From: an uncultured Bacteroidales bacterium
GTDB taxonomy: Bacteria > Bacteroidota > Bacteroidia > Bacteroidales > Bacteroidaceae
DNA: 64,000 nucleotides
Assembly: GCA_902771725.1 (NCBI GenBank)
Contig: CACXXT010000001.1
Location: 62,001 to 126,000, forward strand
Direction: 5' to 3'
Both the position numbers and the translations under genes were made by a program. This document shows, piece by piece, positions 16,853 to 51,194 of the stretch (the first letter of the stretch is position 1; each line of letters opens with the position of its first letter). The notes beneath the pieces are model-generated. The model did no database searches. It was not told the origin of the DNA and was given only the letters and a program-made list of their open reading frames with translations.

Positions 16853-19288
16853 TTATTTCTTGAAGGTGACGTTCTCCACGTGGTTGCCTAAGAAGAGGGG
16901 GATGTAGTCGGCGGTGGAGTACCAGCCGGGCTTACCGGGCATCTTGTCGTGGAGCGTCTGGCCGTTGATTTTCAGTCCCTCGAAGGTGATGTTGCGGACT
17001 TTGTGCTGTTCGTCGTAGCCATTGATGATGGAGAGGTAGGGCTGCTGTCCGTGGTAGCGAACTCCCCGGAAGGTGATGTCCTCCACGCCTTGCCCGGGTG
17101 CTGCGCAGTACTTGGAGTTGAAGGCGACCTTCACCTGCAGGATGCTGCCCTGATGGAGCTGCTCGATGCGGATGTTGTCGAAGAGGACGTTGCGCACCAG
17201 GTTGTTGTCGCCCGCATTGATGGCGAGGCATCCCTGGTAGTCCACCTGCGGCTCGCTCTGGCAGAGGATGTCTATGTTCTCGTAGATGAGGTTCTCGACG
17301 GTGTCGCGCCGCTCTGGATGCGGTCCGGCTGCTGCGCCGTGGAGTCCGATGAAGATGGGGTGTGCAACGTCAGCCCAGAGCGTGGAGTTGCGCATACGGA
17401 TATTCCGTGCCGAGCCCTCGAAGCCTTTGCGGGTGGCGTAGACGGTGGTGCAGTCGTCGGAGTTACGGCAGAAGACGCGGTCGTAGAGAACGTTGGAGGA
17501 TGCGAAGACATTCAGGCCGTCGCCCCAACCTGGATGTGAGATGCTGCGTACATCGTGCAGCGTCACTCTGTCCGAGCCTCCGACGGGGCAGGTGTTCACC
17601 ACGAGTCCGTCGACAAGCACATTCTTCGAGCGGTAGACGTGGCAACCCTCGTAACCTTTTTCCGGACGGGCGATGCCGCGTCCGAGGATGCTGACATTGT
17701 GGGCATCCTCGATGGCGAAGGTTCCTGTGAAGTAGGAGCCTCCGGCGAGGTAGATGGTCAGCCCGTCTCCATCCTTTCCCCAGGGGAGGGGCGCCTGACG
17801 GGCAATATCGTCTATGTCAGCCTGAGCATAGTAACCGGGCGGGAAGTAGATGAACTTGCGCCCCTGCGCAATGGCTTCCTGCTCTGCCTGTTCCTTGCTG
17901 ACGGGCGGACGGGATGTGAAGACGAGCAGGTTGGAGGTGATGTCGCCATCGAGCTCCACGCTCAGGTTCTCGGGCTGGAAGAGCAGGAACTGCACGGTGG
18001 AGTCGTTCTGCACGTTGGCGATGGTGCCGCGGTAGTCGGGGCGGATGCGTGCGGACTGGAATTTACGGTTTCTACTGACCACGCGCACGAAGACATCACC
18101 CGTGAAGTCGAAGACGACGTAGGAAATCTCGGAGACCTTGTGCTTGTTGTTGCCGATGGGCGCATTGACCTTGGCCATATAGGTGTCCACCCTGGTCCAT
18201 CCCTTGCTGCCTCGCGGCTGGACGAAGACGTCGTAGTCGTGCTTCAGCGGGGCACCGGCAGGTGCGGGGTAGGTGAAGACCTGATGCAACCGCTTGCCTT
18301 CTGTGACTCCGGGTGCGCGCCAGTCGCGTGCCTCCAGTCCCTCATGTACCTCGCCTCGGCGCTCTGCCTTCTTCTGCAGGGCCAGCAGCTGTTTGGTGTA
18401 GGGCATCTTCAACCCTTTCTTCTTCGTGTAGTGCCGGTAGGGTTTGTCGTAGATGTCGCGGATGAGTCCCCTTCCCATGGCTCCCGGTTCGGTCCAGTCG
18501 TTGTAGAGTCCGGTGCAGTCTGTCCAGGTCTCGAAGGGAACGTCGTGGCCGAGGTTGTAGCGCGCGCTGTATTCGATGCCTCGCATGAGTCGGTTGTCCA
18601 GCGCTCCCCATAGATCATCGCCCTGCTCCTCCGCCATCTCGCAGATGTCGCATTGTGCACCCAAACCTAATTGTGCATGCCCTTGGTCACGCCCTGTCTC
18701 CTGGCATTGTCCGCTTTCGTTGACGTAGTGGGGCAGCGAGCCGTTGTCGTTGGCGTGGAGGAAGTACTCTATGGCAGAACCATAGAGCACACTATCCTCG
18801 AGGAAGATGGCAGCCGCCATCCGGCAACGGTTGACGATGGCACCCCAGTTGCCGTTTGCGTAGGGCGAGTCGGCATCAAACTTATCCATAGTCGGTACCA
18901 TGGCGCGTCGGATCATCGCCTCCCATTCGGGTGTGCGGTGGTCGCGCTCCAGGGTCATGGCGCGGCAGAGCCAGTAGGCTTGTATGAGGCAGAGCGGAGC
19001 GTCGTGCCCATCGAATCTATTTAAGGTACGGGCGTAGGCATTGATGATTTCCAGCGCCTTGTCATGCTGTTCCTGCTGGGCAAGGACGAGAGCTGCCTTC
19101 ATATCGCGTTCGCTGCCCGCCTTGCTGGTGCGGAACTCGCCGTCGCGCGCCACGACCTCGTAGGGGCCTGCCATCTTGTAGTCCGAGTAGTCGGGCTGGG
19201 CCTGTGCAGTCGCAATGTCAAATGCGAAATGGAAAATGGAAAAATGGGTTGTGCAGAGCAGCGCGAGGGTGAGGAAGAGTCGTTTCAT
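16853..19288 (-). CDS. Two-domain enzyme: alginate-lyase-like (alpha/alpha) domain plus right-handed beta-helix
   Basis: An 811-residue secreted protein; signal peptide 1-31 (ending ATAQAQ). Residues about 60-330 form a helical domain of the alginate lyase superfamily (PL5/PL38-like), with ANGNWGAIVNRCRM (144-157) and the conserved NESGQCQETGRDQGH (190-204). A beta-rich linker (about 340-470) leads to a right-handed beta-helix (about 475-811) resembling GH28/GH49 enzymes, with HPGWGDGLNVF and RNSDDCTTVY as the likely acidic active site. Such a chain could cleave a uronate polymer and trim a second linkage. It is 7 bases after the GH97 gene and so co-transcribed. The lyase half lacks the long C-terminal region of its paralogue at 22843. 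Exact PL family is inferred. Confidence 0.8.
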   Translation of the reverse strand: MKRLFLTLALLCTTHFSIFHFAFDIATAQAQPDYSDYKMAGPYEVVARDGEFRTSKAGSERDMKAALVLAQQEQHDKALEIINAYARTLNRFDGHDAPLCLIQAYWLCRAMTLERDHRTPEWEAMIRRAMVPTMDKFDADSPYANGNWGAIVNRCRMAAAIFLEDSVLYGSAIEYFLHANDNGSLPHYVNESGQCQETGRDQGHAQLGLGAQCDICEMAEEQGDDLWGALDNRLMRGIEYSARYNLGHDVPFETWTDCTGLYNDWTEPGAMGRGLIRDIYDKPYRHYTKKKGLKMPYTKQLLALQKKAERRGEVHEGLEARDWRAPGVTEGKRLHQVFTYPAPAGAPLKHDYDVFVQPRGSKGWTRVDTYMAKVNAPIGNNKHKVSEISYVVFDFTGDVFVRVVSRNRKFQSARIRPDYRGTIANVQNDSTVQFLLFQPENLSVELDGDITSNLLVFTSRPPVSKEQAEQEAIAQGRKFIYFPPGYYAQADIDDIARQAPLPWGKDGDGLTIYLAGGSYFTGTFAIEDAHNVSILGRGIARPEKGYEGCHVYRSKNVLVDGLVVNTCPVGGSDRVTLHDVRSISHPGWGDGLNVFASSNVLYDRVFCRNSDDCTTVYATRKGFEGSARNIRMRNSTLWADVAHPIFIGLHGAAAGPHPERRDTVENLIYENIDILCQSEPQVDYQGCLAINAGDNNLVRNVLFDNIRIEQLHQGSILQVKVAFNSKYCAAPGQGVEDITFRGVRYHGQQPYLSIINGYDEQHKVRNITFEGLKINGQTLHDKMPGKPGWYSTADYIPLFLGNHVENVTFKK
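19215..19243. repeat. AT-rich repeat inside a signal-peptide region
   Basis: This 29-base stretch is 27/29 identical to 25550-25578. Both encode the FSIFHF(A/T)FD part of the signal peptides of two lyases. The pattern (TTTTCCATTTTCC on the minus strand) has a 9-10 base period. Confidence 0.75.
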
Positions 19289-19295: not shown

Positions 19296-21203
19296 TCAGT
19301 TGTCTGTGGGTTTGAAATGGAGGGCAGCGCCGCCGCTGGGCAGCAACTGCAGGGTGATGTCCCTGCCCGCTTTCATCTGTGTGGTCTTGGTGGCCACCTT
19401 GCTGCGGGTGGTGAGGGTCGGGTCGTCTGTGTAGATAGTGACGGTGTACTTCTTTCCGTGTTCCAGGAAATCGGTGGCGAGGGTGATGTCGCGTGCCCCT
19501 GTGCCGTTCATGGCGCCTACGAACCACTCCGCCCCCTTGCGCCGGGCCTGGACGATGAACTCACCGGGCTCGCCGTCGAGTGCGCGGCTCTCGTCGAACA
19601 CCGTGGGGCAGTGGCGCCAGAACTGCAACTCGGCGCCGTCCCATCCATCGGGGTAGGGCAGGTCGTACCAGAACAGAAACTGCAGGGGAGAGTAGAAGAC
19701 GGCGGCCATGGCCAGTTGGTGGGCATGGGTGCAGCGTACGCGGTTGTTGAAGTAGCAGAGCGTGTAGTCCGCCGGTCCGCAGAGGAATCGCGTGAAGGGC
19801 AGCGTGACGTTGTGGCTGGCATCGGGCATCTCCTCGTTGCCGCGTATGCCCTCCTGCGTCAGCAGGTTCGGGAGTGTGCGCGATAGTCCTGTCGGGCGGT
19901 ATTCGTCGTGGATGTCCACCGCCAGTCCGTAGGCGGCGCACTTGCGTACCGCCTCGTGCAACCATTGTGTCCACTGGGCACTGCCTACTTGCACGAAACC
20001 GAACTTCAAGCCGCTGATGCCCCATTGGCGGTAGATGGGCAGCAGCTCGTCCAACTGGCGGGCCAGGGCGCGCTGGTTCACGTAGATCCAGACGCCGATG
20101 CCCTTCTGGCGGGCGTTAGTGCAGATCTCTTCCATGCGGAAGTCACGTGAGGGAGAAACCTGCCGTGCATCGCTTTCCACCTTACCCTCAGGACCGTACC
20201 ACCCGGCGTCCAGTTCCACGTATTCGATGCCGAATTCGGCGCAGAAGTCAATGCTGCGGATCAGGCTGGCTTTGTCCAGACGCGAGCAGCGGAAGGCGCG
20301 CCCAGGCAGTTGCTTTGTCCATGCGGTCATGTCGGCAGGTGCCGGTTCGCAGAGGTTCAGTATCAGTTCCTTATGATTTATCAGGTCCACGGCTCGGCGG
20401 GCAGCCATGATGACTCGCCATGGTGTGTCGTAGGGCGAGATGAGATCCACGTCGCCGTAGAGCTGCACCTGCAGGCGGTCTTCTCCTTTCAGGATAAACT
20501 TACCTCGGGGGAAATCTGTCAGCCCCGCCTCCAGGAGTGCCACGTAGTATCCGCTCTGGAGCCTGAGCAGCAGCGGTCGCTCGCATTCCAGCCATGGTTG
20601 CCGCAGCGGTCGGAGATCGTAGGGACCTTGTGCCCACTCCTCGTACCACGCCGTCGTACCCGCAGGCATGCGGAACGCCGTTCGTTCGCCCGTGACGTGG
20701 AGGAACAGTCCGTTGCTGGTCTCGGGGAAATGATAGCGGAGCGCAACCCCTTCGTCGTAGGCACGCACGATAACATCCAGGGCGTAGAATTTCCGTTTGT
20801 CGTATCCCTCGCTGAAGATGCCATCCCCGTTGGAGCCCTTTTCGAAGTGTAGGACGAGCTGCCGGTAGTGGTCACGTACGAGCTGGTTCTCTCCGTAGGG
20901 AGGTGCCCAGGTCGTGTCGCACTCCGTCCTCTGTTCGCTGCGGAGCTCGAGGTCGCTGCTCCAGTCCTCATTGTTGCCACGCGGCACAGCCAGCGCCGAC
21001 TCGAACAACTGGTTCTCCACGTCCACTCCGAGACGGCTGGGGAGTACGATGGTGTCGCCGCAATAGGTGACGGCGTAGCCCATGGCACCATCCACCTCGC
21101 AGAAGCAGAACTGGTAGCACCCGTCGGGACTTTCCAACGTCTGGGCACCGACTGCCAGAGGCAGCAGGGCAAGCAGGAGTATAAAGGATCTGGTCTTATT
21201 CAT
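19296..21203 (-). CDS. GH97 glycosidase, divergent subgroup
   Basis: A 635-residue secreted enzyme; signal peptide 1-20 (ending AVGAQ). The N-terminal beta-super-sandwich (about 20-280), the catalytic TIM barrel (about 285-560) and the C-terminal beta domain (about 560-635) are all present. GH97 includes inverting alpha-glucosidases and retaining alpha-galactosidases. Here the segment where retaining members carry their Asp nucleophile reads GLKFGFVQVGSAQW, with no Asp. The next landmarks are VDIHDEYRPTGLSRTLPNLLTQEGIRGNEE, close to the Glu-bearing segments of inverting SusB. It may therefore be an inverting enzyme or a third subgroup. The start at 21203 is chosen for the signal peptide and lies 12 bases after a -7 motif. 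Co-transcribed with the lyase/beta-helix gene. Confidence 0.88.
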   Translation of the reverse strand: MNKTRSFILLLALLPLAVGAQTLESPDGCYQFCFCEVDGAMGYAVTYCGDTIVLPSRLGVDVENQLFESALAVPRGNNEDWSSDLELRSEQRTECDTTWAPPYGENQLVRDHYRQLVLHFEKGSNGDGIFSEGYDKRKFYALDVIVRAYDEGVALRYHFPETSNGLFLHVTGERTAFRMPAGTTAWYEEWAQGPYDLRPLRQPWLECERPLLLRLQSGYYVALLEAGLTDFPRGKFILKGEDRLQVQLYGDVDLISPYDTPWRVIMAARRAVDLINHKELILNLCEPAPADMTAWTKQLPGRAFRCSRLDKASLIRSIDFCAEFGIEYVELDAGWYGPEGKVESDARQVSPSRDFRMEEICTNARQKGIGVWIYVNQRALARQLDELLPIYRQWGISGLKFGFVQVGSAQWTQWLHEAVRKCAAYGLAVDIHDEYRPTGLSRTLPNLLTQEGIRGNEEMPDASHNVTLPFTRFLCGPADYTLCYFNNRVRCTHAHQLAMAAVFYSPLQFLFWYDLPYPDGWDGAELQFWRHCPTVFDESRALDGEPGEFIVQARRKGAEWFVGAMNGTGARDITLATDFLEHGKKYTVTIYTDDPTLTTRSKVATKTTQMKAGRDITLQLLPSGGAALHFKPTDN

Positions 21204-21215
21204 ATTTTCTGGGGA

Positions 21216-21223
21216 CAAAGATA
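21216..21223 (-). promoter_or_regulatory. -7 promoter element of the GH97 operon
   Basis: Minus-strand TATCTTTG fits TAnnTTTG, 12 bases before the GH97 start, giving a very short leader. Confidence 0.55.
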
Positions 21224-21346
21224 CAAAAAGGGTATGAGAAAGCGCCTCAGGTACCGTCAAAAACTGAAAGAAGGCGATAGATTTTGGTCTGTTTTCCCAA
21301 AAATGATTCGATTATGTGCGTGAGGTGTGCGCCTGTAGCGTGAAAA

Positions 21347-21417: not shown

Positions 21418-22278
21418 ATGAGCATACGGCTGTTCGACCAAATAACCCATTGGCTGCACAAACTGGACCAGCACCAGCAGCAGCCCATGATGCACACTGT
21501 CATCACCGACGAGGAGCACGTCTGTGAGAATTGTGGTACGTCGTATGTGGGACGTTTCTGTCCCCAGTGTGGTCTGCGTGGTAATTACAGTCGGCTGACG
21601 GTGAAGAATGTGATGCAGGGTTTTCTGGACATCTGGGGGTTCGGGTCGCGCCCGATGCTACGGAGTATTCAGGAATTGTTTTGGCGTCCGGGCTACATGA
21701 TGCGCGACTATCTGCATGGTCACCAGCCGCTCTACTTCCCGCCTTTCAAGATGCTGGTCATCATGACGCTCATCTTTGTCATTTGCTCGTCTATTCGCGG
21801 CATCCATCCTCAGCCAGGGGACGAATTTCTTTATGGCGATGTCTTCGTGCGCTATGGAGCAGCTCCGTGGGTGGTTTCGTTCTTTGAACGCATTGACAAG
21901 TTTTTATTATGGCTCGACAACAACCCCGCGTACTCCGTCATCTTTGCTGGTCTGTTCTACATTTTTGCCTCCTGGCTGGTGTTCCTGCGCAAGATGTCGT
22001 TCGTGGAAATCTTCTTCTGCCAGATCTACATCTCGTGCCAAATGCAGCTGGTGGGTGCAATCTGGGTGCTGTTTGCAGGGTCCGAGGCATACTACAACAT
22101 ACCTCCCTTTGCGGTTCCGGTAGGTATCGCTCTCCCCTTGCTTTGCTATGACTATGCCCAGCTATACGGACTGGGGTTGTGGGCTTCGCTGTGGCGTACA
22201 GTCCTCACCTACGCTCTTAGTTTGTTCTTCATGATCAGCGTGGGCGCACTTCCCATCATCATCCTAAAATACTTTTAA
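21418..22278 (+). CDS. DUF3667-type membrane protein with zinc ribbon
   Basis: A 286-residue protein of unknown function. Residues 36-51 form a zinc ribbon (Cys36, Cys39, Cys48, Cys51 in CENCGTSYVGRFCPQCG). This is followed by FLDIWGFGSRPMLRSIQELFWRPGYMMRDYLHGHQPLYFPPFKMLVIMT, the typical DUF3667 signature (given here only in outline), and five or so hydrophobic segments up to the C-terminus. The plan suggests an inner-membrane protein with a cytoplasmic metal-binding head. It has a good promoter of its own and probably shares a transcript with the lipoprotein gene 25 bases downstream. Nothing ties it to carbohydrate use. Confidence 0.8.
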   Translation: MSIRLFDQITHWLHKLDQHQQQPMMHTVITDEEHVCENCGTSYVGRFCPQCGLRGNYSRLTVKNVMQGFLDIWGFGSRPMLRSIQELFWRPGYMMRDYLHGHQPLYFPPFKMLVIMTLIFVICSSIRGIHPQPGDEFLYGDVFVRYGAAPWVVSFFERIDKFLLWLDNNPAYSVIFAGLFYIFASWLVFLRKMSFVEIFFCQIYISCQMQLVGAIWVLFAGSEAYYNIPPFAVPVGIALPLLCYDYAQLYGLGLWASLWRTVLTYALSLFFMISVGALPIIILKYF

Positions 22279-22303
22279 ACCAATACGTTAATTAAATACA
22301 ACA

Positions 22304-22801
22304 ATGACAAAGAAACTATTCGTTCTACTCTTAGCCATCTGCCCCTTCTTCGCAGCGTGTGGCAATGATGACAACGCCGAACCTTACACCAACATGGACG
22401 ACATGGCTTTCCTGCAGGCTCGTCTGGCCGCAGAGGGCAACCTGGTCTATGGGGTGACCGTGGGTAATGATGACAGTGGCATCCTCTATCGTCCAGTGAA
22501 GGACGTTGCCGAGGCTCAGGCTGAATTCTACAAATTGGTGCCCACGGGTAAGAATCATCCGGGTATCTCCAATGGCGATGGCGGGCAGATGACCTGCATC
22601 CTGACCGATGCCAAGGGCGATGTGCAGGGCTCCATCACCTACCAGCCCCGTACTACTTCGTCCGTCTGTGCTGAGGTCTCGCTGTCTCCTCAATTATCAA
22701 AAGCCATCCGCATCAATCAGCTGCGATACATTCCCTATGAGGACTGGCCCAACGAGGACAATGGTTTCCTGAAGGACATCATGGAACAAATCAAGAAATA
22801 A
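22304..22801 (+). CDS. Small lipoprotein of unknown function
   Basis: A 165-residue protein with a lipoprotein signal (MTKKLFVLLLAICPFFAAC, lipid Cys at 19) followed by a GNDDNAEP acidic segment. In Bacteroidales acidic residues just after the lipid cysteine often mark surface export. The remainder is a compact, probably beta-rich domain without recognisable motifs. It is the second gene of a likely two-gene unit with the DUF3667 protein. No homologous family was recognised. Confidence 0.75.
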   Translation: MTKKLFVLLLAICPFFAACGNDDNAEPYTNMDDMAFLQARLAAEGNLVYGVTVGNDDSGILYRPVKDVAEAQAEFYKLVPTGKNHPGISNGDGGQMTCILTDAKGDVQGSITYQPRTTSSVCAEVSLSPQLSKAIRINQLRYIPYEDWPNEDNGFLKDIMEQIKK

Positions 22802-22828: not shown

Positions 22829-22869
22829 AATGGGCGGAAGGCTTACTTCATCAGTACCTTCCGCCCATT
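22829..22869. terminator. Bidirectional terminator overlapping the end of the lyase gene
   Basis: Perfect 13-bp arms AATGGGCGGAAGG and CCTTCCGCCCATT enclose 15 bases. The right arm also encodes the last residues (GRK) of the minus-strand lyase, and the loop holds its stop codon. It separates two convergent genes. Confidence 0.75.
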
Positions 22870-25617
22870 TATGATATAAACCCCGGAGTGGTAGGGAAGG
22901 GCGGAGGCGGAGCGCCCGCTGAGGTCATAGCATTTACTATTTGATGATTTACTATTTAAGGATTGGTTGTCAGGGGTGGACTTGATTTCCCGGATGGCAG
23001 TAGCATCGTAGGCGATGAGTTGGAAGGGAAAGGCGCGGAGGGTGGAGGTGGCAGCTGTCTGCAGCACACCGCTCTCATCGAGATTCCAGAACTTAAGTGA
23101 GGAGGTGGTGCTGCCAGTGTGGAGCGCATAGTGATCTGTGCCCATGGCCTGCTCCAGGTAGAAGGGGTAGTAGGCTGTGGAGGCTGTCTTGGCAGCGGTG
23201 CTAATCAAGAGGCTGTCGCCATCGACACGACTGACGAGATTGCATGCGGCGCGGTTGTTCTGTTCGATGTACCAGATCTGAGCGGCATTGGCGGCATCGC
23301 GCGGCTCGAAGGTAACAGGTTCACCCTTGGCGTGGGCTGTGAGGTAAGTATCCGTGTCGATGTGGCGGAGTAGGTAGGTGCCGGGAGCCAGCTGTGCACT
23401 CTCGTCGGCTTTCACGTAGAGGTCGAAGGTGATGGTGTACTCCACATCGCGCAGGCGGAATGTTGCAGAGTAGGTGCCGGAGGTTTGTACGTCCTCGAGG
23501 GTGAGTGTGGCTCCTGTGCTGCCGTCGTTCCAAGTGACGTCAGCGGCTTTCACGGCAGTGGGCAGAGTGAGGCCGAGAGTTACCGAGGAGCCAGCGGCGG
23601 CTACGGCCTGACGGGTGGCAGCGGGCGAGCCTTCGTTGATGATGACGTAGGGCTCGGCAGCAACCATGCGGACATCGAAAGTCATCGTGCTGACTGCACC
23701 GCCCTGGCTGCGGTACTCCACGGTGTATTGGGCGTCGGCTGTCACGCTGCGTGTGATGCTCTCGGTAGTGGCTTTGGTGCTCCACTTATAGGTTCCCCAG
23801 CCCATGGCGGGTGTGGCGGCGAGTGTGACGCTCTTACCATAGAGAACATCGATGGTGGTGCCCTCAATGGTGTTGCCGCCGTAGGTGATGCGCGGTGTCA
23901 GCAGGTCAGGTGTGCAGTCTCCGTCCACGGCGATGGCGAAGGAGAGCTGACTCTCGATGACGTTCTTGTTCGTGTAGGTGACGCGGTAGATGAAGCTGCG
24001 GTCGGTCTGGATGGTGATGTCGCGGGTCTGCTCTCCCGTGTTCCACTGCCAGTTTCCTGTGTCCTCCTCGCCCTCAGGCAGTTGCGGCATGAGTTTCAGG
24101 GTCTGTCCTGCGGGCACGCATGTATTATTATTTAAGGTGAAGGTGTTGACGAGTCCTCCCAGTTCGTTGTGGCTGATGACCTTTCCGACGACGAGCTTGC
24201 GGGTCTTCTCCTGGGCAAGCGATGGGATGAGGTTCGTTGTGATGGAGCCGCTGTATTCCATTCGTGGCGAGAGCTCCGTGGGTACGCGGTCAGCGGGGCA
24301 GAGCTGTTCGTCGCGCGTGTTCATGAGCACGCTGTAGCCCAGATGGTCGTATCCGCCACTGGTGCCTCCCTGTCCTCCCTCGTCGATGCCCATATTCTTG
24401 TATGAGACCTCGGAGAAAGGCATCTTCACTCCCTTCACGCCTTCGTAGATTCCGATGACGGTGCCCCAGTAGGGTCGCATCTGTGCGCCCAGGGCAGGAC
24501 CTTCCATGACGTAGGCACGTGCATCGCTATAGTAGTATCCGCTGCTGCCGTACTGATAGTTCGTCCACGGCAGTCCTTCGATACTCTGGGTCTGAGCTGC
24601 CACGTATTCAATTCCGGCAGCCAGGCGGTGGTCCATGTATGCGAAGAGGTCGTCGCCCTGATTCCACCCGACTTTGGCCATGTCAATCGCGAGTCCCAGT
24701 GCCATGGCGGAGTGACCTGTGTCGCGCCCGCTCTCGTTCATCTGTCCGAGTTGTCCGTAGGCTCCCGTCTCGAGTTCACTGGCTGAGGTGGTGACGACGA
24801 GGTTGCCGAGGAACTCAGTGAGGCCGTCGTTCTTGATGGGCACTTCCGTGCGCTTGTCCTTGAAGGTGCCGCACTGGTCGTACTTGAAGTAGGACATACC
24901 CTGGTTGTAGAGGAAGACGTCGTCGCAGAGGATGCCGATCATGCTGACGCAGAGGGCGTTGCAGAGTCCCCAGTTGCTCCAGTAGTGCCCCGGAGCCTGC
25001 CACCACTTGCCGTTGTTCTCCCAGGTGCCGTTGCGTCCTCGCAGGAAGCCGATGGCCTTGGGGTACCATACACTGAGCATCCATTGTTTGAATTGCTCGA
25101 ACTGCTCGGCCGGCCATCCTTCGTAGTCTCGCATGAGTTCTGCTGCTTGAGCGAACTGGTATCCATAGAGTCCGCTGGCGAGGGCGTAGTTGCTGTCGCC
25201 GCTGACGTCCTTGGTGGTGTTGGCCCATGCCATGAGGATGCGCACGGCGGCATTGGCGTTCGCCTTGTTGCCTGCCAGTTTCCAACGGAGTGCGTTCTGA
25301 TAAGCCATAGTGGCGCCGCGACAAGCATTGATGTAGTTCTCGCCTTGTCCGCCCCCGCGTACGATGACTTCCACGGGAGAAGTTTGCACGTTGGACTGTG
25401 AGTAGGCAGCACTGGTGAGTTTCTGGTAGGCGGACTTTACGGTTTTGTTGCCGGCAGCAATCTGAGCCTTCACGCGGTCGAAGTCGGCCTGCGTGTGGAG
25501 TCCTCCGGGATGGATGAAACCACGGTCGGGCTGGGCCAGTGCTGGCGCCATGTCAAATGTGAAATGGAAAATGGAGAATTGGACTGCAAAGAGCAGTGCG
25601 AGGGCGAGTCGTTTCAT
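22843..25617 (-). CDS. Alginate-lyase-superfamily polysaccharide lyase (PL38-like) with C-terminal sorting-like tail
   Basis: A 924-residue secreted protein; signal peptide 1-29 (ending PALAQ). Residues about 35-400 form an (alpha/alpha) toroid of the alginate lyase superfamily, with ENNGKWWQAPGHYWSNWG (200-217) and GQMNESGRDTGHSAMALG (291-308). The NESGRDxGH motif is shared with the two-domain enzyme at 16853. PL38 members cleave glucuronan-type chains; that substrate is likely but not proven. The middle (about 440-760) has repeated Ig-like beta domains. A domain with DTDTYLTAHAKGEP may be ricin-like. The end reads CYDLSGRSASALPYHSGVYIINGRKVLMK in outline, similar to T9SS type A tails. It is the last gene of the GH13-GH88-lyase operon (6-bp gap after GH88). 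Confidence 0.82.
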   Translation of the reverse strand: MKRLALALLFAVQFSIFHFTFDMAPALAQPDRGFIHPGGLHTQADFDRVKAQIAAGNKTVKSAYQKLTSAAYSQSNVQTSPVEVIVRGGGQGENYINACRGATMAYQNALRWKLAGNKANANAAVRILMAWANTTKDVSGDSNYALASGLYGYQFAQAAELMRDYEGWPAEQFEQFKQWMLSVWYPKAIGFLRGRNGTWENNGKWWQAPGHYWSNWGLCNALCVSMIGILCDDVFLYNQGMSYFKYDQCGTFKDKRTEVPIKNDGLTEFLGNLVVTTSASELETGAYGQLGQMNESGRDTGHSAMALGLAIDMAKVGWNQGDDLFAYMDHRLAAGIEYVAAQTQSIEGLPWTNYQYGSSGYYYSDARAYVMEGPALGAQMRPYWGTVIGIYEGVKGVKMPFSEVSYKNMGIDEGGQGGTSGGYDHLGYSVLMNTRDEQLCPADRVPTELSPRMEYSGSITTNLIPSLAQEKTRKLVVGKVISHNELGGLVNTFTLNNNTCVPAGQTLKLMPQLPEGEEDTGNWQWNTGEQTRDITIQTDRSFIYRVTYTNKNVIESQLSFAIAVDGDCTPDLLTPRITYGGNTIEGTTIDVLYGKSVTLAATPAMGWGTYKWSTKATTESITRSVTADAQYTVEYRSQGGAVSTMTFDVRMVAAEPYVIINEGSPAATRQAVAAAGSSVTLGLTLPTAVKAADVTWNDGSTGATLTLEDVQTSGTYSATFRLRDVEYTITFDLYVKADESAQLAPGTYLLRHIDTDTYLTAHAKGEPVTFEPRDAANAAQIWYIEQNNRAACNLVSRVDGDSLLISTAAKTASTAYYPFYLEQAMGTDHYALHTGSTTSSLKFWNLDESGVLQTAATSTLRAFPFQLIAYDATAIREIKSTPDNQSLNSKSSNSKCYDLSGRSASALPYHSGVYIINGRKVLMK
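25550..25578. repeat. AT-rich repeat inside the second lyase signal peptide
   Basis: 27/29 bases identical to 19215-19243, in the same frame. See that entry. Confidence 0.75.
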
Positions 25618-25623: not shown

Positions 25624-26970
25624 TTATCGGTAGAGGGCTTTGTATCGGTTGAGAGCTTCGAGGTAGTAGTAGTCGGCATAGATGATGGGAACATCGATTT
25701 CCGAACCTGCTGGGTGATTGCCGGTGCTGTGGAGCAGGAATGCGCTGCACAGGGGTGCAGCCTGATACGCTGGGCTGCTGAGGCTCTGGAGCATGTTTCG
25801 TGCGGCATTGCAGTACGTTTCCCGCTTCTCTGGATCAGCGTATTGCTGCAGTTCTAGCAGGCTGCTTGCGACGACGCAGGCAGCAGAGGCGTCCTTCGGA
25901 GCCTGCTGTCCGCGCGGGTCATCGAAGTCCCAGAGGGGCACCCAGTCGTCTGATGTCTCCTGCAAACGTCGGAGAAAGGCATCGGCAGCACGCTGCGCCA
26001 TGTCGAGGAAGCGCTGTTCGCGGGTGAAGCGGTAGATGGTCGTGAAGCCGTAGACCGCCCATGCCTGACCGCGGGTCCAGGTGCTGCTGTCGGCCAGCCC
26101 CTGGTGTGTCACGCCATGGATGAAGTGACCGTCCAGAGTGTCGTAGACGGCGACATGATAGCAGGTGGCATCGGGACGGAAGTGATGCCGAAGGGTGGTC
26201 TCGGCATGGCGCACGGCAATCTGGTAGAGCGGCGATTCCTCGGGACGGAGGCAGGTTTCTTCCTCTTCGCCGGAAGCATTGGGATTAGCCCTCTGCCCGG
26301 CTGCCCAGCAGAGCAGTTCGAGGTTAATCATGTTGTCCATGATGGTGTTGTGCCCGCCGAACATCTGGATGTTCCGTGGCCAGGAGAGGATGGTTCCCAC
26401 CGTGGGGTTGAAAAGCGTGGCGAGGGAATCGGCAGCGCGCAGGCAGAGGTCGCGGAACCGGTCGCAGAGGGCTCTGTCCTCAGTACGCTGTTCCGCGGGC
26501 AGATCCTGGCGCTGGAGTTCCTGTTCCAACACCCGCAGCCCTGTCCCGGCGCTGCAGAAGACGAGGAACCCCAGGTCGTGGTCCAGGACCGGACGATCCA
26601 CCACGCGGTACATGGCCAGCGTGGCGTCGGCGGCAGCTCGGCGCACCTTCAGTGAACTCTCAGTGGTGTTTCCGGCACGGAGCTGTGCCTCGTAGTCCAG
26701 CCAGAGGATGCCGGGCCAGAAGCCGCTGCACCACTCTTCGGCACAGAGCGGCCGGCAACTCCAGACGCTGTCGCCAGGTGCCACATTGCGGGGCATCATG
26801 GTCGTATCAATGGTGCCCGAGGATGATAGCTGATCCAGGGCGCGGTGAACTTGGCGGTCGCATAGATCCAGCGCGGCATCGACATCGAAGTCAGGGGTGC
26901 GACCAGCAGGCGAGCAGGCGACGAGCAGGCCTGCGAAGAGAAGTGCAGCGGTGGAGCGGAGGACGTTCAT
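25624..26970 (-). CDS. GH88 unsaturated glucuronyl hydrolase (lipoprotein)
   Basis: A 448-residue (alpha/alpha)6-barrel enzyme with a lipoprotein signal (lipid Cys at 19 in LLVACS). GH88 enzymes hydrate and remove the 4,5-unsaturated uronic acid left at the non-reducing end by a polysaccharide lyase, releasing it for metabolism. Conserved sites are Asp132 in DHDLGF and Asp212 in NTIMDNMINLELL, equivalent to the two catalytic Asp of Bacillus UGL; others are HQGLADSSTWTRGQAWAVYGF in outline and GSEIDVPIIYADYYYLEA. It lies between the SusA-like GH13 gene (12-bp gap) and the lyase (6-bp gap), so lyase product processing is the obvious role. Confidence 0.93.
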   Translation of the reverse strand: MNVLRSTAALLFAGLLVACSPAGRTPDFDVDAALDLCDRQVHRALDQLSSSGTIDTTMMPRNVAPGDSVWSCRPLCAEEWCSGFWPGILWLDYEAQLRAGNTTESSLKVRRAAADATLAMYRVVDRPVLDHDLGFLVFCSAGTGLRVLEQELQRQDLPAEQRTEDRALCDRFRDLCLRAADSLATLFNPTVGTILSWPRNIQMFGGHNTIMDNMINLELLCWAAGQRANPNASGEEEETCLRPEESPLYQIAVRHAETTLRHHFRPDATCYHVAVYDTLDGHFIHGVTHQGLADSSTWTRGQAWAVYGFTTIYRFTREQRFLDMAQRAADAFLRRLQETSDDWVPLWDFDDPRGQQAPKDASAACVVASSLLELQQYADPEKRETYCNAARNMLQSLSSPAYQAAPLCSAFLLHSTGNHPAGSEIDVPIIYADYYYLEALNRYKALYR

Positions 26971-29134: not shown

Positions 29135-32059
29135 TTATCGGGTTACGACCTTGCGCCCGCCAGCGATGTAGAGCCCTGCCCGCAGTCTGGAGGACCAGGC
29201 GGTAGGTATCCCTTGAAGGTTAAAGATGGTGTTAGTGGTTCCGGTGAATGGTGCTCCTTCAGGCGTCGATGGGAAGAATACGGCGTCCAAGAGCGGTGTC
29301 TGTGAGAGCCATGAATAGACGTCGCTGCTCATCTGACCGGCTACGCGCAGCCAGCCGTCTGTGAGCCTTCCAGCAGAGAAGGGATTCTTGTTCTCGAAGT
29401 CTGCCTCGAAGAGAACCTCACCCTTGGATCCGCGTAGGCGAACATTATCAAAGCGGGCGATTTCCGTTTTACCATAAGTGTCATCATGTGACTGACGGAA
29501 TCCGATACGTCCGTAGGGGAAGGTGCCGCTGCGTTCGTCTACGAGGATATTGTTGATATAGGTACACACATATGACTCTTCATCAATTTCCAGTCTGATG
29601 TTGAAGGGCACGCCGGGTTGTATGGCAGCCTCTGCAGGCAGGTTGATTTCAGCCAACACCGAAGCCTGTCCGCCCATCCAACGATGAGGACGCAATCGGG
29701 GCCGAGCAGGATCCGAAACGTTGAATTGCCACATATAGTAGCTATTGTTGTCCGAACGGGCGAAGCAGAGTCCGGCGCTGAGCTGATCTATTTGCACCTG
29801 AGCCTCAATGGTGTATGTGGATTTAGCCTCGGGCAAGTCGTCGGGCGTGGCGTTCTTTGTCAGCAGGGCGTCGTCCACGAGGAACACTGACTGGTTGGGA
29901 CGCAGTTTCAGTGTGAAGGAACCTTCGGGTGTCAATTGGAGGGTAGTAACGCGCCCTGTGTGAGGGTCGAGCAACGAACAGGCAGTAGGGACTGAGGCCA
30001 GTGTGATGACATTCTCTGCGGTAGAGTTGTCGATATTTCCGAAGAAGAAGACATCACGTCCCTCCACCTGTTTGTGAATGTAGTTGAAGGGATGTTGGCT
30101 GCTGGTGAATAGCACATCGCGCTGCGGAAGCAGTTCGTTAATAGCCTGCAGCAAGGATTTCTCGGTAGGAGAGGCTACAAACAGTGCTGGGCGATGTTCC
30201 TCGTCGCCCGCCAGCATACGTGCAACGACCTGTTGCACAGTCTCGTCGTTGCCTATAGGGTCGGCGCAACTCGTAGGCTTCTGAGAGGTGAAAATGACGC
30301 CTACACCAGCTTCCCACGCTTGCTCGATCTTCTGGAGATTCGATGAGGAAATGCAGGCCACACCAGGCAGGATGATGAGGCGGAACTGTTCGGTATTTAC
30401 GGCATTGGAGAGTAGGAGCCTGTTGTCGCTGACAGTACAACGGTCATCAATGACTTCCGGATGCAGGTAAGTGAAATCGATACCCAGCTGATCGGTGAGC
30501 AGGCGGGAAACACGAGGATAATCCGTTTTGGGAATTTCCACACCGCCTTCGTAGTAGCCCTTGGGTCCATCGAAGACGTGACCTGCGTACATCGTCTGAA
30601 TGGGATAGAGCACGGCCACGTCTGCCACATGGCGAGCGGGTCGTTGCAATAGGTAGTTCAGACGAGCCAGGAAGAGGTTAAAGGTGGGTAACTCGCGGTT
30701 GTAGAGGCTGTTGCGCCACGAGAGTTCTGGCAGGAAGGTGACATTCTTGTCATCGTACCACACAGCGTGGGGTATCAGGTGATTGATTCCCTTGGTGTAC
30801 TGCTCAATGGCGACCTGGTAGAGCTGTTCCATGGGGATGTTTCCCATGGCTCCATAGGTTTCCGACATCACATAGTCCTTGTCCCAGCAGTTGGCAGACG
30901 AGGAAACCACTTTGTAGTAATCCTCTGTAGGGCGTCCGCCACCAATCTTGTCGATGCCGGGCATGGACAGGTGCTTGCCCACAAGCATTAGATCGCCTGC
31001 CACGCTGGTGGGGTTGGCAATTTCCTCTTGATCCTGATGGCCAGTGGCCAGGATTCCATGAGCTGCCGCCCAGTCGCCGATGGTCTTCATGAACCCTTCG
31101 CTATAGAGCGTGGAGTGAAGCCCGAAAAGACTGTTGCGTGCCCAGTTTGTGCGCTTACCGATGTCATACCATAAGGCGGGGTAGAGCAGTTCCGGTGACT
31201 CGCCATAACGTTGCATATACTGTTCATTGAAATTGTCAGTCCACATACGTCCTTGGGCACGGTACATCGTAGGTTCATCGAAGAACGTGGAAGTGATGGT
31301 CTTCCCGAAGAAGTCAGCAAAGCGGGTGTAGTATTGCTCGTGTGTATCCTGGATGAAGAGCTTGACGGCTTCCTGCGAGAGGTAGTCCACGTTCGGGTCG
31401 CCGTCCACCACGGATTCGAATTGCAGAATCCGCCAGCCAGAGGCAGTCGGTGGAGTCCAAGTGAGGTGACCTGTGGCCGAATCGAAGTAGTCGCGCAGGG
31501 GCTGAACTTCTTTCGTCTTGGTGTTCCATGCAACGAGTGCCATCAGTTTTCCGTTGAGTTTCAGGTCGCGGTCAAAAGTATTTCCGGTAGTGATGTGGTA
31601 TTCGGTCTTGTCGAGGCGCTTCACGGTCGCTTCAGGATGGTTATTCTTGAAGGTTGTCACGCCGGAACCGTTGATGGCTCCCATGCTTCCTGAAGGGAAA
31701 CCGTACTCGTCGTAGATGGACATTTGGGCTCCCAGTGCCTGTGCCTGCTCCAGAGCACGGCGGTAGAGCTCAAAGTATGCTTCCGACAGATACTCTGGTC
31801 GGAACCCCTCGCCGAAAGGAAGGATGGCTCCGCCCCCGTAGTTGTCCTTCTCCACCATTTGGCTAAGCTGGTTCTCCAAGGTTGTGGCTTGGATGGTTGT
31901 GTTGTTCCAGAACCAAAGCGGTACCGGTTTCCATTTGATTCCCGGCATGGCAAATTCTTTGGTCTCATAGGGCGGTTGGTCGGCAGCCCGAAGTGCTGCT
32001 GGCAAGGTCGCAAGGAGGCAGCAGCCCGCGAGAGCAGCATACAATTTTCTCTGATTCAT
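29135..32059 (-). CDS. GH106-like glycosidase with LamG-like module and sorting-like tail
   Basis: A 974-residue secreted protein; signal peptide 1-26 (MNQRKLYAALAG to LRAAD); an ATG nine bases upstream is possible. The main part resembles GH106 alpha-L-rhamnosidases: PVPLWFWNN near the N-terminus, YGGGAILPFGEGF, MSIYDEYGFPSGSMG, and STFFDEP. GH106 enzymes remove alpha-L-rhamnose with inversion. Residues about 748-886 are a concanavalin-like module (AGLCFARSDNNSYYMWQFN) that recurs twice in the adjacent GH78. The C-terminus RAGLYIAGGRKVVTR is almost the same as that of the GH78 and resembles T9SS type A tails. The gap from GH78 is 21 bases. GH106 is the best guess; a related uncharacterised glycosidase family is possible. 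Confidence 0.78.
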   Translation of the reverse strand: MNQRKLYAALAGCCLLATLPAALRAADQPPYETKEFAMPGIKWKPVPLWFWNNTTIQATTLENQLSQMVEKDNYGGGAILPFGEGFRPEYLSEAYFELYRRALEQAQALGAQMSIYDEYGFPSGSMGAINGSGVTTFKNNHPEATVKRLDKTEYHITTGNTFDRDLKLNGKLMALVAWNTKTKEVQPLRDYFDSATGHLTWTPPTASGWRILQFESVVDGDPNVDYLSQEAVKLFIQDTHEQYYTRFADFFGKTITSTFFDEPTMYRAQGRMWTDNFNEQYMQRYGESPELLYPALWYDIGKRTNWARNSLFGLHSTLYSEGFMKTIGDWAAAHGILATGHQDQEEIANPTSVAGDLMLVGKHLSMPGIDKIGGGRPTEDYYKVVSSSANCWDKDYVMSETYGAMGNIPMEQLYQVAIEQYTKGINHLIPHAVWYDDKNVTFLPELSWRNSLYNRELPTFNLFLARLNYLLQRPARHVADVAVLYPIQTMYAGHVFDGPKGYYEGGVEIPKTDYPRVSRLLTDQLGIDFTYLHPEVIDDRCTVSDNRLLLSNAVNTEQFRLIILPGVACISSSNLQKIEQAWEAGVGVIFTSQKPTSCADPIGNDETVQQVVARMLAGDEEHRPALFVASPTEKSLLQAINELLPQRDVLFTSSQHPFNYIHKQVEGRDVFFFGNIDNSTAENVITLASVPTACSLLDPHTGRVTTLQLTPEGSFTLKLRPNQSVFLVDDALLTKNATPDDLPEAKSTYTIEAQVQIDQLSAGLCFARSDNNSYYMWQFNVSDPARPRLRPHRWMGGQASVLAEINLPAEAAIQPGVPFNIRLEIDEESYVCTYINNILVDERSGTFPYGRIGFRQSHDDTYGKTEIARFDNVRLRGSKGEVLFEADFENKNPFSAGRLTDGWLRVAGQMSSDVYSWLSQTPLLDAVFFPSTPEGAPFTGTTNTIFNLQGIPTAWSSRLRAGLYIAGGRKVVTR

Positions 32060-32080
32060 GAATCTCATATCTCAAAAAGA

Positions 32081-35000
32081 CTATCGGGTTAGGAACTTGC
32101 GTCCGCCAGCGATGTAGAGCCCTGCTCGCAGACCTTGGGTAGAGGTCGTCTCGCTGCGAAGGAGGCGACCGTTGAGATCATAGACGGGGGCGGAAGAACT
32201 TTCGGTGACAACACGTGAGATGGCATCCTTGAGGTCCGTGGTTAAGCAGTAGGATCCGGAGCCAAGGCGATAGACCTGGCACCCGTCCTCGTAGCCCAAA
32301 TACTCCACGCCCTCAGACTCGGCAGCAGGGTGGTCACCTTCGTAGACTGAAGTTTGCTCGCTGCCGGCAGGAAGGTACAAGGTGGCGGTAGTGTTGGCGG
32401 GAACGGTGCATTCGTAGGTGAAACCATTCTGATCGGTAGTCTGCCAGGCGGAGCGTATGTCACCATAGTAGCTCTGGTGGCGGGCACTGGCTGAGGTGAT
32501 GAGTTCTTGCCCGGCGGGCAACTGCTGGCGACGGTCTGGTTGCGGCTGGAGGATGATGTGCTTGAAGCCCGGTTGCTGTTCATCGTACTGAATGCCACAC
32601 ATATAGCGGTACATCCATTCGCCTACGGCACCATAGGCGTAGTGGTTGAAACTGTTCATGCCAGGGTCTCCGAAGCCGCTCTCCTTAGTGTAGCTGTTCC
32701 AGCGCTCCCAGATGGTGGTGGCTCCCTGATCGACGCTGTAGAGCCAGGACGGGCACTTTCGCTGCAGCAGCAGGTCGTAGGCGAAGTCGTTCAGCCCGTA
32801 TCGTGAGAGGGTGGGACCAAGCAGGGGAGTACCTGCGAACCCCGTGTTAAGCTTGTAGCTGTTGTTGCGGATGGAGCGGGTGAGGCGTGTCTTGAAATTC
32901 TCAATTTCCGTATCTCCCTCCAGCAGGTTGAACTGCAAGGCCATGAGTAGGGCTGTTTGGGTGGTCTGGCGCACGGTGGGGGTGATGTAGCGGCGGCGGA
33001 ACTCTTCCTTGATATTCAGGAAGAGCTGGTCGTAGCTGGCTGCTTTCTGAGCGTAAGCATCGGCATCGCTGTCGCTGAGTGCACGGCTCATCTTGGCCAT
33101 CAGTTGGGTGACGTAAGCGTAGTAGGCAACGGCAATGTAGCGTGTATCCGTTGTGACGAAAGAAAGCCAGTCGCCCCATTCCAGACCTCCACCATTGTAC
33201 TGGTAGCCATCGAAGACCTGCTTGGCGAGGAAGGTCATGTAGCGTTCCATGGAATCGTAGTTCTCGCGGATGGCATCCTTGTTGCCGGTCATGACGTACA
33301 GCGTCCAAGGCACAACGATGCCCGCATCGGCCCACACGGTCTGCCCAAAAGGAGTGCCCCAGCACTCAGGTGCGACACCTGGGTAGGCGCCCTCGGCGTT
33401 TTGTCCGTCGCGCACATCCTGCATCCATTTGCGGTAGAAGGATTCCATGAAGGCATTGTATAGTCCCGTGCAGGTGAACACCTGTGTGTCAGCCATCCAG
33501 CCCAGTCGTTCGTCGCGCTGCGGGCAGTCGGTAGGCACGCTGAGCAGGTTGCCTCGCTGTCCCCAGGTGATGTTGGAGAAGAGCTGGTTGACCAACGCAT
33601 TGCTTGTCTCCACGTAGCCTCGGTCTTCGGTGGAGGAACTGACGGGCTGTGCTTCGATGGCGAGGATTTCTACGTCGTCGGAGGGTGTCACCTCGCAGTA
33701 ACGGAATCCGAAGAAGGTGGTGGAGGAGTGGTAGCTCTCGCCTTCGGCAGCACCGCTGAGGGTGTAGTAAAGTGAAGCCTTGGCCGAGCGCAGGTTGGCC
33801 AGATAAGGTGTACCGCCAGGGCCATCGTTGCCACGGCTTCGCGAGCCTGTGTCGTTCAGCATTTCCACGAATCGCATCTTCAGACGGTTGCCGGCGCGTC
33901 CCTTTACCCGGAAATTCACCCATCCGACCACGTTCTGACCGAAGTCGAAGACCACGGACTGACCTTTCTTGACCTGGACGGCTGCAGGCCCTTCCGTGGT
34001 GCTGACGACGTTGGCCATGCCGAAGTCAGTGCCGGTGCTCTTTACGCCCTCGTGTATGGTGGCAGTACGCACTTGCTGCACCTTGTCTGGCAGTGTGCGG
34101 ACGTAGCCGCCGGTGAAAGCGTTGATCTTTCCCTTGAACTCCACGTTTTCACGCACAGTGTTCCAATGGCTGTCATCGTAGTCGGCGGCAGTCCAGTTAC
34201 TGGCCAGGCGTGCATCATAGATCTCGCCGTCGTATATGTCGCCCAGCTTCAGAGCCCCGCCCTTTGAAGAGAGCCAACTGAGGTCGCTGACGATGATGTC
34301 CTCGGTGCCGTCGGTGTACCGGACGAGCAACTTGGCAAGGAACCCCGTGCTGGGTGAACCATAGGCTCCGTGCATCACAGCACCCGCCCACCAGCCTGGG
34401 GTGACCACGGCACCGATGGCGTTCTTGCCAGCGGCAATCAGGGAGGTTACGTCATGCGTGCTGTAGAAAACACGGTAGCGGAAATCTGTCCATCCGGGCT
34501 TCAGTTCCTCATAGATGGTGGTGCCGTCGGGCTGCACGTGTCCCACGCGCTGTCCGTTCATGAATAGGTCGTAGACACCCAGTCCGCTGGTGAAGAGCGT
34601 GGCGGAAGCCACTTGCTTGCTGACCTCGAAGGTCTTGCGGAACTGAGGCATGCCTTCCGTGGTGGTCTGCATTACCTTCTTCTCGCCGGAAGCAGATTTC
34701 ACGTGGCACATACGCGAGCCCTCAAAGTCTTCGATGACAGCATCATAGAAGAAGTCGGACGACAGTCCTTCGAAGTCCTCCGAGAGGCGCACGTGCGGAG
34801 TGCCGTCGGGGTCGTATTCAGTCAGGATGAGGTTGTCGTAGTAGGCTTCCTCGCCAGCATTGTTGTCCACGCGCATTCCGATGTCGCCCCGGACGGCGGT
34901 GCCGGTGTTGTCCGTGTAGGTGTCCACGAGCTGGTCGTCCACGAAGGTGCGGATGGCCGTACCCTCGACTTCCACGCGGTAGTGGTGCTTGTGGCCCAGG

Positions 35001-36202
35001 ATGTCGCTCTTCTTTAGCTGAGTGAACTGGGCATCGTTCCAGGTGAGGTTGCCGTTGATGTAGGTGTGGTGGCGCACAGCGGGGTTGGCATTGTCGTTGG
35101 CATTGATTTGCCACATGTGGTAGGTGTTTGCCGAAGTGGCGGCGAAGATGACTGCTGCACTGGCCTTGACGAGGTACATATCCCAGTCCAAGGCATAGTG
35201 AACGTGTGTGCCATCGGTCTGCTTCTGCCAGACAAGGACGTGCCCGTTGGTGGAGCCTACGATGCGGAGCTTGCCGCCAGTTACAGTGCCGCCCGTGAAA
35301 CTGTTGCCCTGCTCAAAGTCCTCCGAGAGGAGTACCGTGCCGCTGGCGGTAGTCACGCGAATGTCATCATAGACACCGATTTCGGCTTTGCCGTCGCGCT
35401 CGCCGTGGTCTTCTCTCATGCCGATGCGGCCGAACTTGAAGTCACCCGTCCTATCGTCCACCAGGACATTGTTAATATAGGTTCGCGCACGTGAGGCTCC
35501 AGTGACTTCTATGCGCAGCGTGAATTCATCGGTGTTGTTCAGCGCCACCTTGCCAGTGAGGTTGATGTTGTCCAGGCAGGAGGGGTTGCCGTTCTTCCAC
35601 ACATGAGGGCGCAAACGGGGGTAGTCGCCCTCCGTATTCAGCTGCCAGAAATAGAAATTCGAATTGTCCTGCATGGCAAAACAAAGACCTGCAGCCGTAT
35701 GCTCGATGCGCACCTTTCCCTCAACGGTGTAGTCCGTGACTTCGTCCGTGGTCTGTCCTGCGGGAACGTCGCTGGCCTTTATCCACTTGGCACCGCTCCA
35801 TCCGGTGCCCATCAGCCCGGTTTCGAAGTAGGCAGATTCTGTCGATGTGGCTGTTTTCCCCTTGTTGTCCTGCACCGTTACGTGCCAGTAGTAGCGCTGT
35901 GCAGGCTGCAACGAGAGGCTGTTGACTTCTACACCTACGGACTGCTCGCTCTGCACGACACCCGAGTCGAAGATCACGTCCTCGCCTGCTGCGTCGGATG
36001 TGAGGACCAGATGATATGTTGTCTGTACCACACCGCGTTCGGCAGAATGCAGCTGCCATGTGAATTGCAACGAAGATTGGTCGATACCGCTGGGGTTGCG
36101 CAGAGCTTGCACGCGCAGGTTGTCCACGTTCAGCGCAAAGGCTCCGGCACATGATGCGAGTGCCAGCAGTGCGCTCAGGAAGAAATTCTTTTGCATAGTC
36201 AT
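32081..36202 (-). CDS. Giant GH78 alpha-L-rhamnosidase with two inserted LamG-like modules
   Basis: A 1373-residue secreted protein, several hundred longer than the usual 900-1000. Order: signal peptide (to about 24, AGAFA); an Ig-like rhamnosidase N-domain (about 25-125); two inserted concanavalin-like modules (about 157-310 with AGLCFAMQDNSNFYFWQLN, and about 335-474 with AAVIFAATSANTYHMWQIN); rhamnosidase beta domains (about 490-840); the (alpha/alpha)6 catalytic barrel with TDCPQRDERLGWMADTQ near 890 (the GH78 catalytic acid region) and SGFGDPGMNSFNHYAYG near 1180; a C-terminal beta domain; and a tail RAGLYIAGGRKFLTR. It should remove alpha-L-rhamnose from polymers outside the cell or in the periplasm, with the inserts probably binding carbohydrate. 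First gene of the operon with the GH106-like gene. Confidence 0.9.
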   Translation of the reverse strand: MTMQKNFFLSALLALASCAGAFALNVDNLRVQALRNPSGIDQSSLQFTWQLHSAERGVVQTTYHLVLTSDAAGEDVIFDSGVVQSEQSVGVEVNSLSLQPAQRYYWHVTVQDNKGKTATSTESAYFETGLMGTGWSGAKWIKASDVPAGQTTDEVTDYTVEGKVRIEHTAAGLCFAMQDNSNFYFWQLNTEGDYPRLRPHVWKNGNPSCLDNINLTGKVALNNTDEFTLRIEVTGASRARTYINNVLVDDRTGDFKFGRIGMREDHGERDGKAEIGVYDDIRVTTASGTVLLSEDFEQGNSFTGGTVTGGKLRIVGSTNGHVLVWQKQTDGTHVHYALDWDMYLVKASAAVIFAATSANTYHMWQINANDNANPAVRHHTYINGNLTWNDAQFTQLKKSDILGHKHHYRVEVEGTAIRTFVDDQLVDTYTDNTGTAVRGDIGMRVDNNAGEEAYYDNLILTEYDPDGTPHVRLSEDFEGLSSDFFYDAVIEDFEGSRMCHVKSASGEKKVMQTTTEGMPQFRKTFEVSKQVASATLFTSGLGVYDLFMNGQRVGHVQPDGTTIYEELKPGWTDFRYRVFYSTHDVTSLIAAGKNAIGAVVTPGWWAGAVMHGAYGSPSTGFLAKLLVRYTDGTEDIIVSDLSWLSSKGGALKLGDIYDGEIYDARLASNWTAADYDDSHWNTVRENVEFKGKINAFTGGYVRTLPDKVQQVRTATIHEGVKSTGTDFGMANVVSTTEGPAAVQVKKGQSVVFDFGQNVVGWVNFRVKGRAGNRLKMRFVEMLNDTGSRSRGNDGPGGTPYLANLRSAKASLYYTLSGAAEGESYHSSTTFFGFRYCEVTPSDDVEILAIEAQPVSSSTEDRGYVETSNALVNQLFSNITWGQRGNLLSVPTDCPQRDERLGWMADTQVFTCTGLYNAFMESFYRKWMQDVRDGQNAEGAYPGVAPECWGTPFGQTVWADAGIVVPWTLYVMTGNKDAIRENYDSMERYMTFLAKQVFDGYQYNGGGLEWGDWLSFVTTDTRYIAVAYYAYVTQLMAKMSRALSDSDADAYAQKAASYDQLFLNIKEEFRRRYITPTVRQTTQTALLMALQFNLLEGDTEIENFKTRLTRSIRNNSYKLNTGFAGTPLLGPTLSRYGLNDFAYDLLLQRKCPSWLYSVDQGATTIWERWNSYTKESGFGDPGMNSFNHYAYGAVGEWMYRYMCGIQYDEQQPGFKHIILQPQPDRRQQLPAGQELITSASARHQSYYGDIRSAWQTTDQNGFTYECTVPANTTATLYLPAGSEQTSVYEGDHPAAESEGVEYLGYEDGCQVYRLGSGSYCLTTDLKDAISRVVTESSSAPVYDLNGRLLRSETTSTQGLRAGLYIAGGRKFLTR

Positions 36203-39260: not shown

Positions 39261-41666
<2,406 letters not shown>

Positions 41667-41698
41667 TTATGAAAAGGTGTCATGTGGTGGCTGGGTAT

Positions 41699-43798: not shown

Positions 43799-43848
43799 AG
43801 CGTTTATTTATGAATTTGACAAATTACGATTATATGGGTTTTGTGGGC

Positions 43849-45147: not shown

Positions 45148-45194
45148 ATGGATGGTTGTTTTTTGATTAATAGGTCTAATGGAGGTAAATGGGC

Positions 45195-46241: not shown

Positions 46242-46269
46242 TTTAGTTCTATTTGCGGGCAAATGTAGA

Positions 46270-46277
46270 CAAAAGTA
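46270..46277 (-). promoter_or_regulatory. -7 promoter element of the lacI-MFS-malQ-GH97 arm
   Basis: Minus-strand TACTTTTG fits TAnnTTTG, 28 bases before the lacI start. The LacI operator is about 45 bases further upstream, near or just beyond the -33 region. Confidence 0.65.
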
Positions 46278-46321
46278 GGCAGTCTGCGATAAATTATAAG
46301 TACGAAATCAAGTGTTATTGA

Positions 46322-51174: not shown

Positions 51175-51194
51175 TTCCTAAAGAAGCAAACGAC

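Follow-up and report, generated by a model that had tools for sequence, protein, structure and literature searches.

A single gene on the minus strand of the window (the whole 64,000-nucleotide stretch of DNA analysed here) runs from ATG to stop at 16853-19288 and encodes a protein of 811 amino acids. An N-terminal segment that reads by eye as signal-peptide-like (approximately residues 1-31, 19196-19288) is followed on the same strand by a PL5/PL38-type (alpha/alpha) domain (residues 33-320, 18329-19192), a beta-sandwich (residues 334-465, 17894-18289) and a right-handed beta-helix (residues 466-811, 16856-17893). An earlier note had placed a fusion of an alginate-lyase-like domain with a beta-helix here, and its coordinates proved exact. 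The N-terminal segment carries no conserved lipobox, a loose pattern for which matched in 4/73 fused orthologs, and we infer a secreted protein that is probably periplasmic.

The fused gene stands among other carbohydrate-active genes. A GH97-type gene recognised by Pfam lies 7 bases upstream (19296-21260, minus strand). Beyond it are a second alginate-lyase-type protein of 924 amino acids (22843-25617, minus; PF05426, 48.8 bits; included in alignment A3) and, adjoining this, a gene of the GH88-type unsaturated glucuronyl hydrolase family (25624-26970, minus; PF07470, 27.7 bits, cut-off 26.6). GH106- and GH78-type (alpha-L-rhamnosidase) genes assigned by Pfam follow in the same minus-strand gene run (29135-36202). 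Taken together, the GH97, GH127, GH43, GH78 and GH106 genes that are neighbours here or in related loci point to arabinose, rhamnose and alpha-hexose material and name no single polymer. The sole SusC/SusD pair among the 20 window genes scanned (46507-51174) sits beside starch-type genes. These form a starch-type locus at 39318-56221 with GH97, GH77, an MFS transporter, a LacI-type regulator, SusC-type, SusD and SusE-type proteins and an alpha-amylase bearing CBM26. A DUF3667 gene and a Pfam-less gene occupy the plus strand at 21418-22801, between the 924-residue lyase-type gene and the GH97-type gene.

The fusion of a lyase-type with a GH49-type domain is genuine and conserved. Of 37 genomes from the same genus, the window's own among them, 15 encode the whole chain free of internal stops (identity 69-100%), and a second, more distant fused form is found in two further genomes of the genus (G003 and G033). 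Related loci were also gathered from titled records with two search patterns, both derived from the N-domain; both halves are present at >60% identity in each of the 80 best of these 367 loci. The same-genus genomes and the 80 loci together rule out a chance open reading frame or an assembly join. Most of the 80 are metagenome-assembled genomes labelled Prevotellaceae, Prevotella or Bacteroidaceae, many come from the rumen and other herbivore gut sites, and the isolate Prevotella sp. P6B1 is among them; in such bacteria this architecture is widespread. None of 24 genomes from other families of the order contained the whole chain in one match, and in G055 and G059, from such families, the halves are separate genes. 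Across 247 genomes sampled from the class (own included), the C half matched in 9 and the N half in 7, with the fused form in the window's own genome and in G239. Among the papers listed for an open-licence library we saw no account of this architecture; for the window protein, NCBIfam gave nothing better than matches far below cut-off, and PDB sequence searches with the fused protein and with a profile of its orthologs returned no direct match.

The N-terminal lyase-type domain

Pfam places Alginate_lyase (PF05426) at residues 139-245 with 23.3 bits, above the cut-off of 22.2. The predicted model of this domain (pLDDT 94.3 over residues 30-320) has the (alpha/alpha) lyase fold that characterises PL38 and PL5, and VIA-align superimposes it on the PL5 enzyme PanPL (7wxj; Z 21.5, rmsd 3.1, 251 residues aligned) and on the PL38 enzyme BoPL38 (8bdq; Z 19.4, rmsd 3.3, 255 aligned). 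The likeness to these enzymes and to A1-III covers the whole N-domain and includes an active-site Asn and Arg, whereas identity in the structural alignments is 9-12% and both catalytic bases differ. Related (alpha/alpha) folds include the epimerase 6hzn (Z 15.0). PDB searches gave a weak match to 3nfv alone for a relative that lacks the C half, and a chance match only for the 924-residue paralog, which shares the E-S-G-R-D-x-G-H and N-W motifs.

In BoPL38, according to the portions of PMC13169297 on which we draw, Y298 abstracts H5 in syn elimination and H243 in anti elimination, and PL42 employs a His base on glucuronate. Mapping our domain onto BoPL38 equates N147 with N242, W148 with H243 (N147-W148, 18845-18850, minus strand), R200 with R292 and H204 with Y298 (E197..R200-D201..H204, 18677-18700, minus). 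The Asn and Arg of the PL38 active site are thus kept and the catalytic pair Y298/H243 is replaced by H204/W148, in 57/57 rows. The BoPL38 numbering, with N242-H243 within NNHG and R292..H297-Y298 within RTLSLHY, agrees with the names of its mutants. E197, R200, D201, H204, N147 and W148 are each invariant in the 57 N-bearing rows of alignment A2. In the more diverse A3, where 18 of 25 rows come from proteins without a C half, the first four stay invariant (25/25), with N147 in 24 and W148 in 23. The conserved motif reads G193-Q-C-Q-E197-T/S-G-R200-D201-Q-x-H204; of the NESG at residues 190-193, which the earlier note had listed as kept, the Gly alone is conserved.

This residue register depends on remote alignments. 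An hhalign comparison of the N family (A3) with PL38-like proteins (A4; Prob 95.7, E 8.6e-9) pairs N147 with the second Asn, W148 with the His, E197 with Glu, R200 with Arg and H204 with the Tyr. The 3nfv alignment likewise puts a Tyr opposite H204, and H204 and D-L-W are, counted by eye, as far apart as Y298 and N-L-W are in BoPL38. The HMMER register is one residue off, with H245 of A1-III, not Y246, opposite H204.

With Y298 exchanged for His and H243 for Trp, any elimination would have to employ a different base from the known enzymes, and lyase activity is uncertain because neither PL38 base is kept in place. The domain might have lost that activity and now bind substrate or act as a scaffold for a GH49-type hydrolase that is itself active, as the change at both base positions would allow; fused N-domains also lack a stretch of approximately 50 N-terminal residues found in many relatives (A3). 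We consider this unlikely, given that seven residues (E197, R200, D201, H204, G223, D225 and E239) are invariant in 25/25 rows of A3, above what a binding shell would lead one to expect. A plain alginate lyase is not supported, since the catalytic positions differ and Pfam scans of 20 window genes contained no lyase family other than PF05426.

Five lyase-type relatives without a C half were inspected for a lipobox (L123, L125, L129, L134:10565-12589 and L136:5122-6528). Two match the loose pattern, one of them at a doubtful Cys, and two more appear lipoprotein-like by eye. Set against the 4/73 among fused orthologs, a move from the cell surface to the periplasm is possible.

The C-terminal GH49-type half

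Structural comparison of the full-length model (m4f211efedd36; pLDDT 90.7, pTM 0.88) returned GH49 chains as its four best matches, all of them to residues 333-811 (Z 26.2-29.2, 413-418 residues) with the alignments beginning at residue 333-334. Isopullulanase is the closest (Z 29.2, rmsd 3.1, 413 aligned) and the dextranases score 28.1 and 26.2. Other beta-helix chains match mainly the helix: the alginate lyase 6kfn at Z 25.2, polygalacturonases at up to 25.0 and mannuronan epimerases (AlgE4) at 23.1. The lyase and epimerase matches count against the hydrolase role proposed below. The model contains the arrangement typical of GH49, a beta-sandwich followed by a right-handed beta-helix. It shares this and an Asp trio with isopullulanase (1wmr, 3wwg) and dextranase (1ogm, 6nzs), whose sequences differ, at 16-20% identity.

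The three aspartates are D590 of GDGLN (17519-17521, minus strand), which falls on the NTDG Asp of 1bhe, and D611-D612 of NSDDC (17453-17458, minus), aligned with the DD of 1bhe, 3jur, 5olp and 6nzs. Each is present in all 62 C-bearing rows of A2; both motifs singled out in the earlier note occur in the protein. The trio takes the positions that three Asp hold in members of GH28 and GH49 (1bhe, 6nzs); in the GH49 active site we take these Asp to be catalytic.

Among sequence profiles, Glyco_hydro_28 (PF00295) at residues 588-777 scores 21.9 bits on the whole protein, just under its cut-off of 22.9, and 23.6, over it, on the C-terminal half alone. It was found at E 0.01 in 20/20 members of the C family, a set that probably includes several ordinary GH28 proteins. 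The GH49 Pfam profile did not match the window protein, and PF17433, the GH49 N-terminal domain, matched in 1/20 C-family members. GH28 polygalacturonases and their relatives (1bhe, 3jur, 5olp) have the beta-helix and the three Asp positions in common with our protein; unlike them, its C half has an additional beta-sandwich and lacks the R-x-K motif. C687-L688-A689 stands where 1bhe and 3jur carry R-x-K (5olp itself has F-x-K), and a Lys at the last of these positions occurs in 0/59 rows bearing a letter there. In GH28 the R-x-K pair binds a carboxylate. A plain GH28 enzyme acting on galacturonan is accordingly disfavoured, and the missing pair together with the GH49 fold suggests a bond between neutral sugars as the target of the C-domain. 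On the predicted model, then, the domain is GH49-type by fold rather than plain GH28, which favours the GH49 side of the earlier description of a GH28/GH49-like beta-helix. Of the checks proposed with that description, the profile-HMM domain search puts PF05426 above its cut-off and Glyco_hydro_28 above its own on the C half alone but not on the whole protein, and structure prediction gives folds of PL5/PL38 and GH49 type.

GH88 partners and a proposed degradation route

A hint at what the N-domain may leave behind comes from its partner. GH88 is absent from the window's own fused chain; solved members of the family, named unsaturated glucuronyl or chondroitin disaccharide hydrolases (3wiw, 1vd5), match both the separate gene at 25624-26970 and a third domain that follows the fusion in 20 of the 80 best loci. 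The window gene is closest to 3wiw among solved relatives (E 1.3e-61) and 52% identical to the fused GH88-type domain of L004. PF07470 matched in 4/4 long orthologs scanned (34.9-56.5 bits, cut-off 26.6). In a further 33 of the 80 loci GH88 is a separate gene nearby, and in 27, several of them on short contigs, it did not appear in the surrounding DNA examined. A quickly built tree with 81 rows requires 8 changes of the fused-GH88 label, at least 5 of them on starred branches, so the GH88 fusion has been gained or lost repeatedly. Relatives of the 924-residue lyase-type protein and of the GH97-type protein lie in the surrounding DNA of 28/80 and 25/80 loci, respectively. L031, the nearest relative, has its genes for GH88, the lyase-type protein, GH97 and the fusion in direct succession; its lyase-type and GH97 genes are immediate neighbours, unlike those of the window with two plus-strand genes between them.

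These associations bear on whether the N-domain is an eliminase at all. It might instead be catalytic in another way, its invariant Glu, Asp and His serving hydrolysis or epimerisation within an (alpha/alpha) framework; E197, D201 and H204 never vary, the Tyr is lost, and an epimerase is among the related folds. That reading seems to us improbable, a little more so than loss of activity, because the GH88 family so often joined or adjacent to the fusion acts on lyase products and the lyase site retains its Asn and Arg.

What we propose, with the case standing about evenly for and against, is a bifunctional degrader of an acidic polysaccharide of plant origin whose chain contains internal 4-substituted D-glucuronate, acting through elimination, GH88 and a GH49-type cut. 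Asn147 and Arg200 would hold the carboxylate while the N-domain carries out a syn beta-elimination, with His204 acting as base and acid instead of the Tyr of PL5 and PL38. The stereochemistry of D-glucuronate suits syn elimination. That course is predicted because the sole candidate base, His204, lies at the syn position, with Trp at the anti position, and the GH88 partner fits glucuronate. The 4,5-unsaturated glucuronyl end so formed would be taken off by the GH88-type enzyme, here the product of a neighbouring gene and in some orthologs the third domain. The GH49-type domain (D590, D611, D612), presumably inverting by analogy, might then hydrolyse a neighbouring neutral-sugar linkage. The earlier note had read two active sites of different mechanism in one chain; two catalytic folds, invariant cleft-type motifs and the GH88-type neighbour partly uphold that reading, and replacement of the lyase bases Tyr and His weakens its lyase part. 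PL38 is assigned to alginate loci in PMC13377030, the main text of which, in the portions used here, mentions neither GH88 nor GH28.

A narrower formulation, which we put forward only tentatively, is a single chain joining a lyase to a GH49-related hydrolase (and, in some relatives, an unsaturated glucuronidase). The lyase domain would form a separate family with an Asn-His-Arg site, His at the Tyr position and syn-only action on glucuronate, and the hydrolase domain a GH49-related family of new specificity. The protein would add to the known multi-catalytic CAZyme chains a member with a putatively remodelled lyase site, often linked with GH88. The fused protein lends itself to asking whether a PL5/PL38 scaffold can work with His in place of its catalytic Tyr, and for many proteins of herbivore-gut Prevotellaceae and Bacteroidaceae it points to a substrate class, the 4-substituted glucuronate polysaccharides of forage plants.

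Split forms and the origin of the fusion

Outside the fused forms, in other families, the two domains occur as separate genes, which can belong to SusD-bearing loci. L136 runs SusC-type barrel, SusD, Big_2/DUF4979 protein, lyase-type, a no-name protein, GH97, C-type, GH127, lyase-type, GH43 and GH88. L132 begins with SusD, Big_2/DUF4979, lyase-type, an alpha/beta hydrolase and a beta-lactamase-type protein and ends with a no-name protein, C-type, GH97 and GH88. In L134 a no-name protein precedes lyase-type and C-type genes lying side by side.

Such separation would also be expected if both domains were active on different polysaccharides and the fusion merely synchronised their expression, with no coupling at neighbouring bonds. 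We hold this to be about as improbable as a non-eliminating N-domain. Lyase-type and C-type genes share one locus in L132, L134 and L136, and the N and C domains may have come together twice, in separate lineages; both points speak for coupled action. G189, which has its N-type and C-type genes on separate contigs, does not help against it.

The coupled route that we prefer would gain from a repeated origin. The main fused clade forms one group in both the N-domain and the C-domain trees. In the C tree a second fused lineage (L135, L019) falls with L114 and L030, whose C-domains are split (support 97/92 and 96/94), and apart from the main fused clade; in the N tree it lies beside that clade. 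This suggests two separate joinings of N and C domains, on an unrooted tree with a long branch of 1.68; one fusion followed by later splits is a possible alternative history. Repeated joining of the same partners, if true, would make a case for hand-over of substrate between elimination and hydrolysis. In the second fused lineage, approximately 150 residues of L135:7739-10615 (minus strand) separate the matched N part from the matched C part.

A conserved protein of approximately 540 amino acids, without a Pfam match at E 0.001, is encoded in each of the three split loci next to the lyase-type or the GH49-like gene (L136:6602-8218, plus strand; L132:10474-12111 and L134:12593-14203, both minus). 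The three copies are 57-60% identical to one another, and shorter relatives, approximately 36-47% identical, lie near some fused orthologs.
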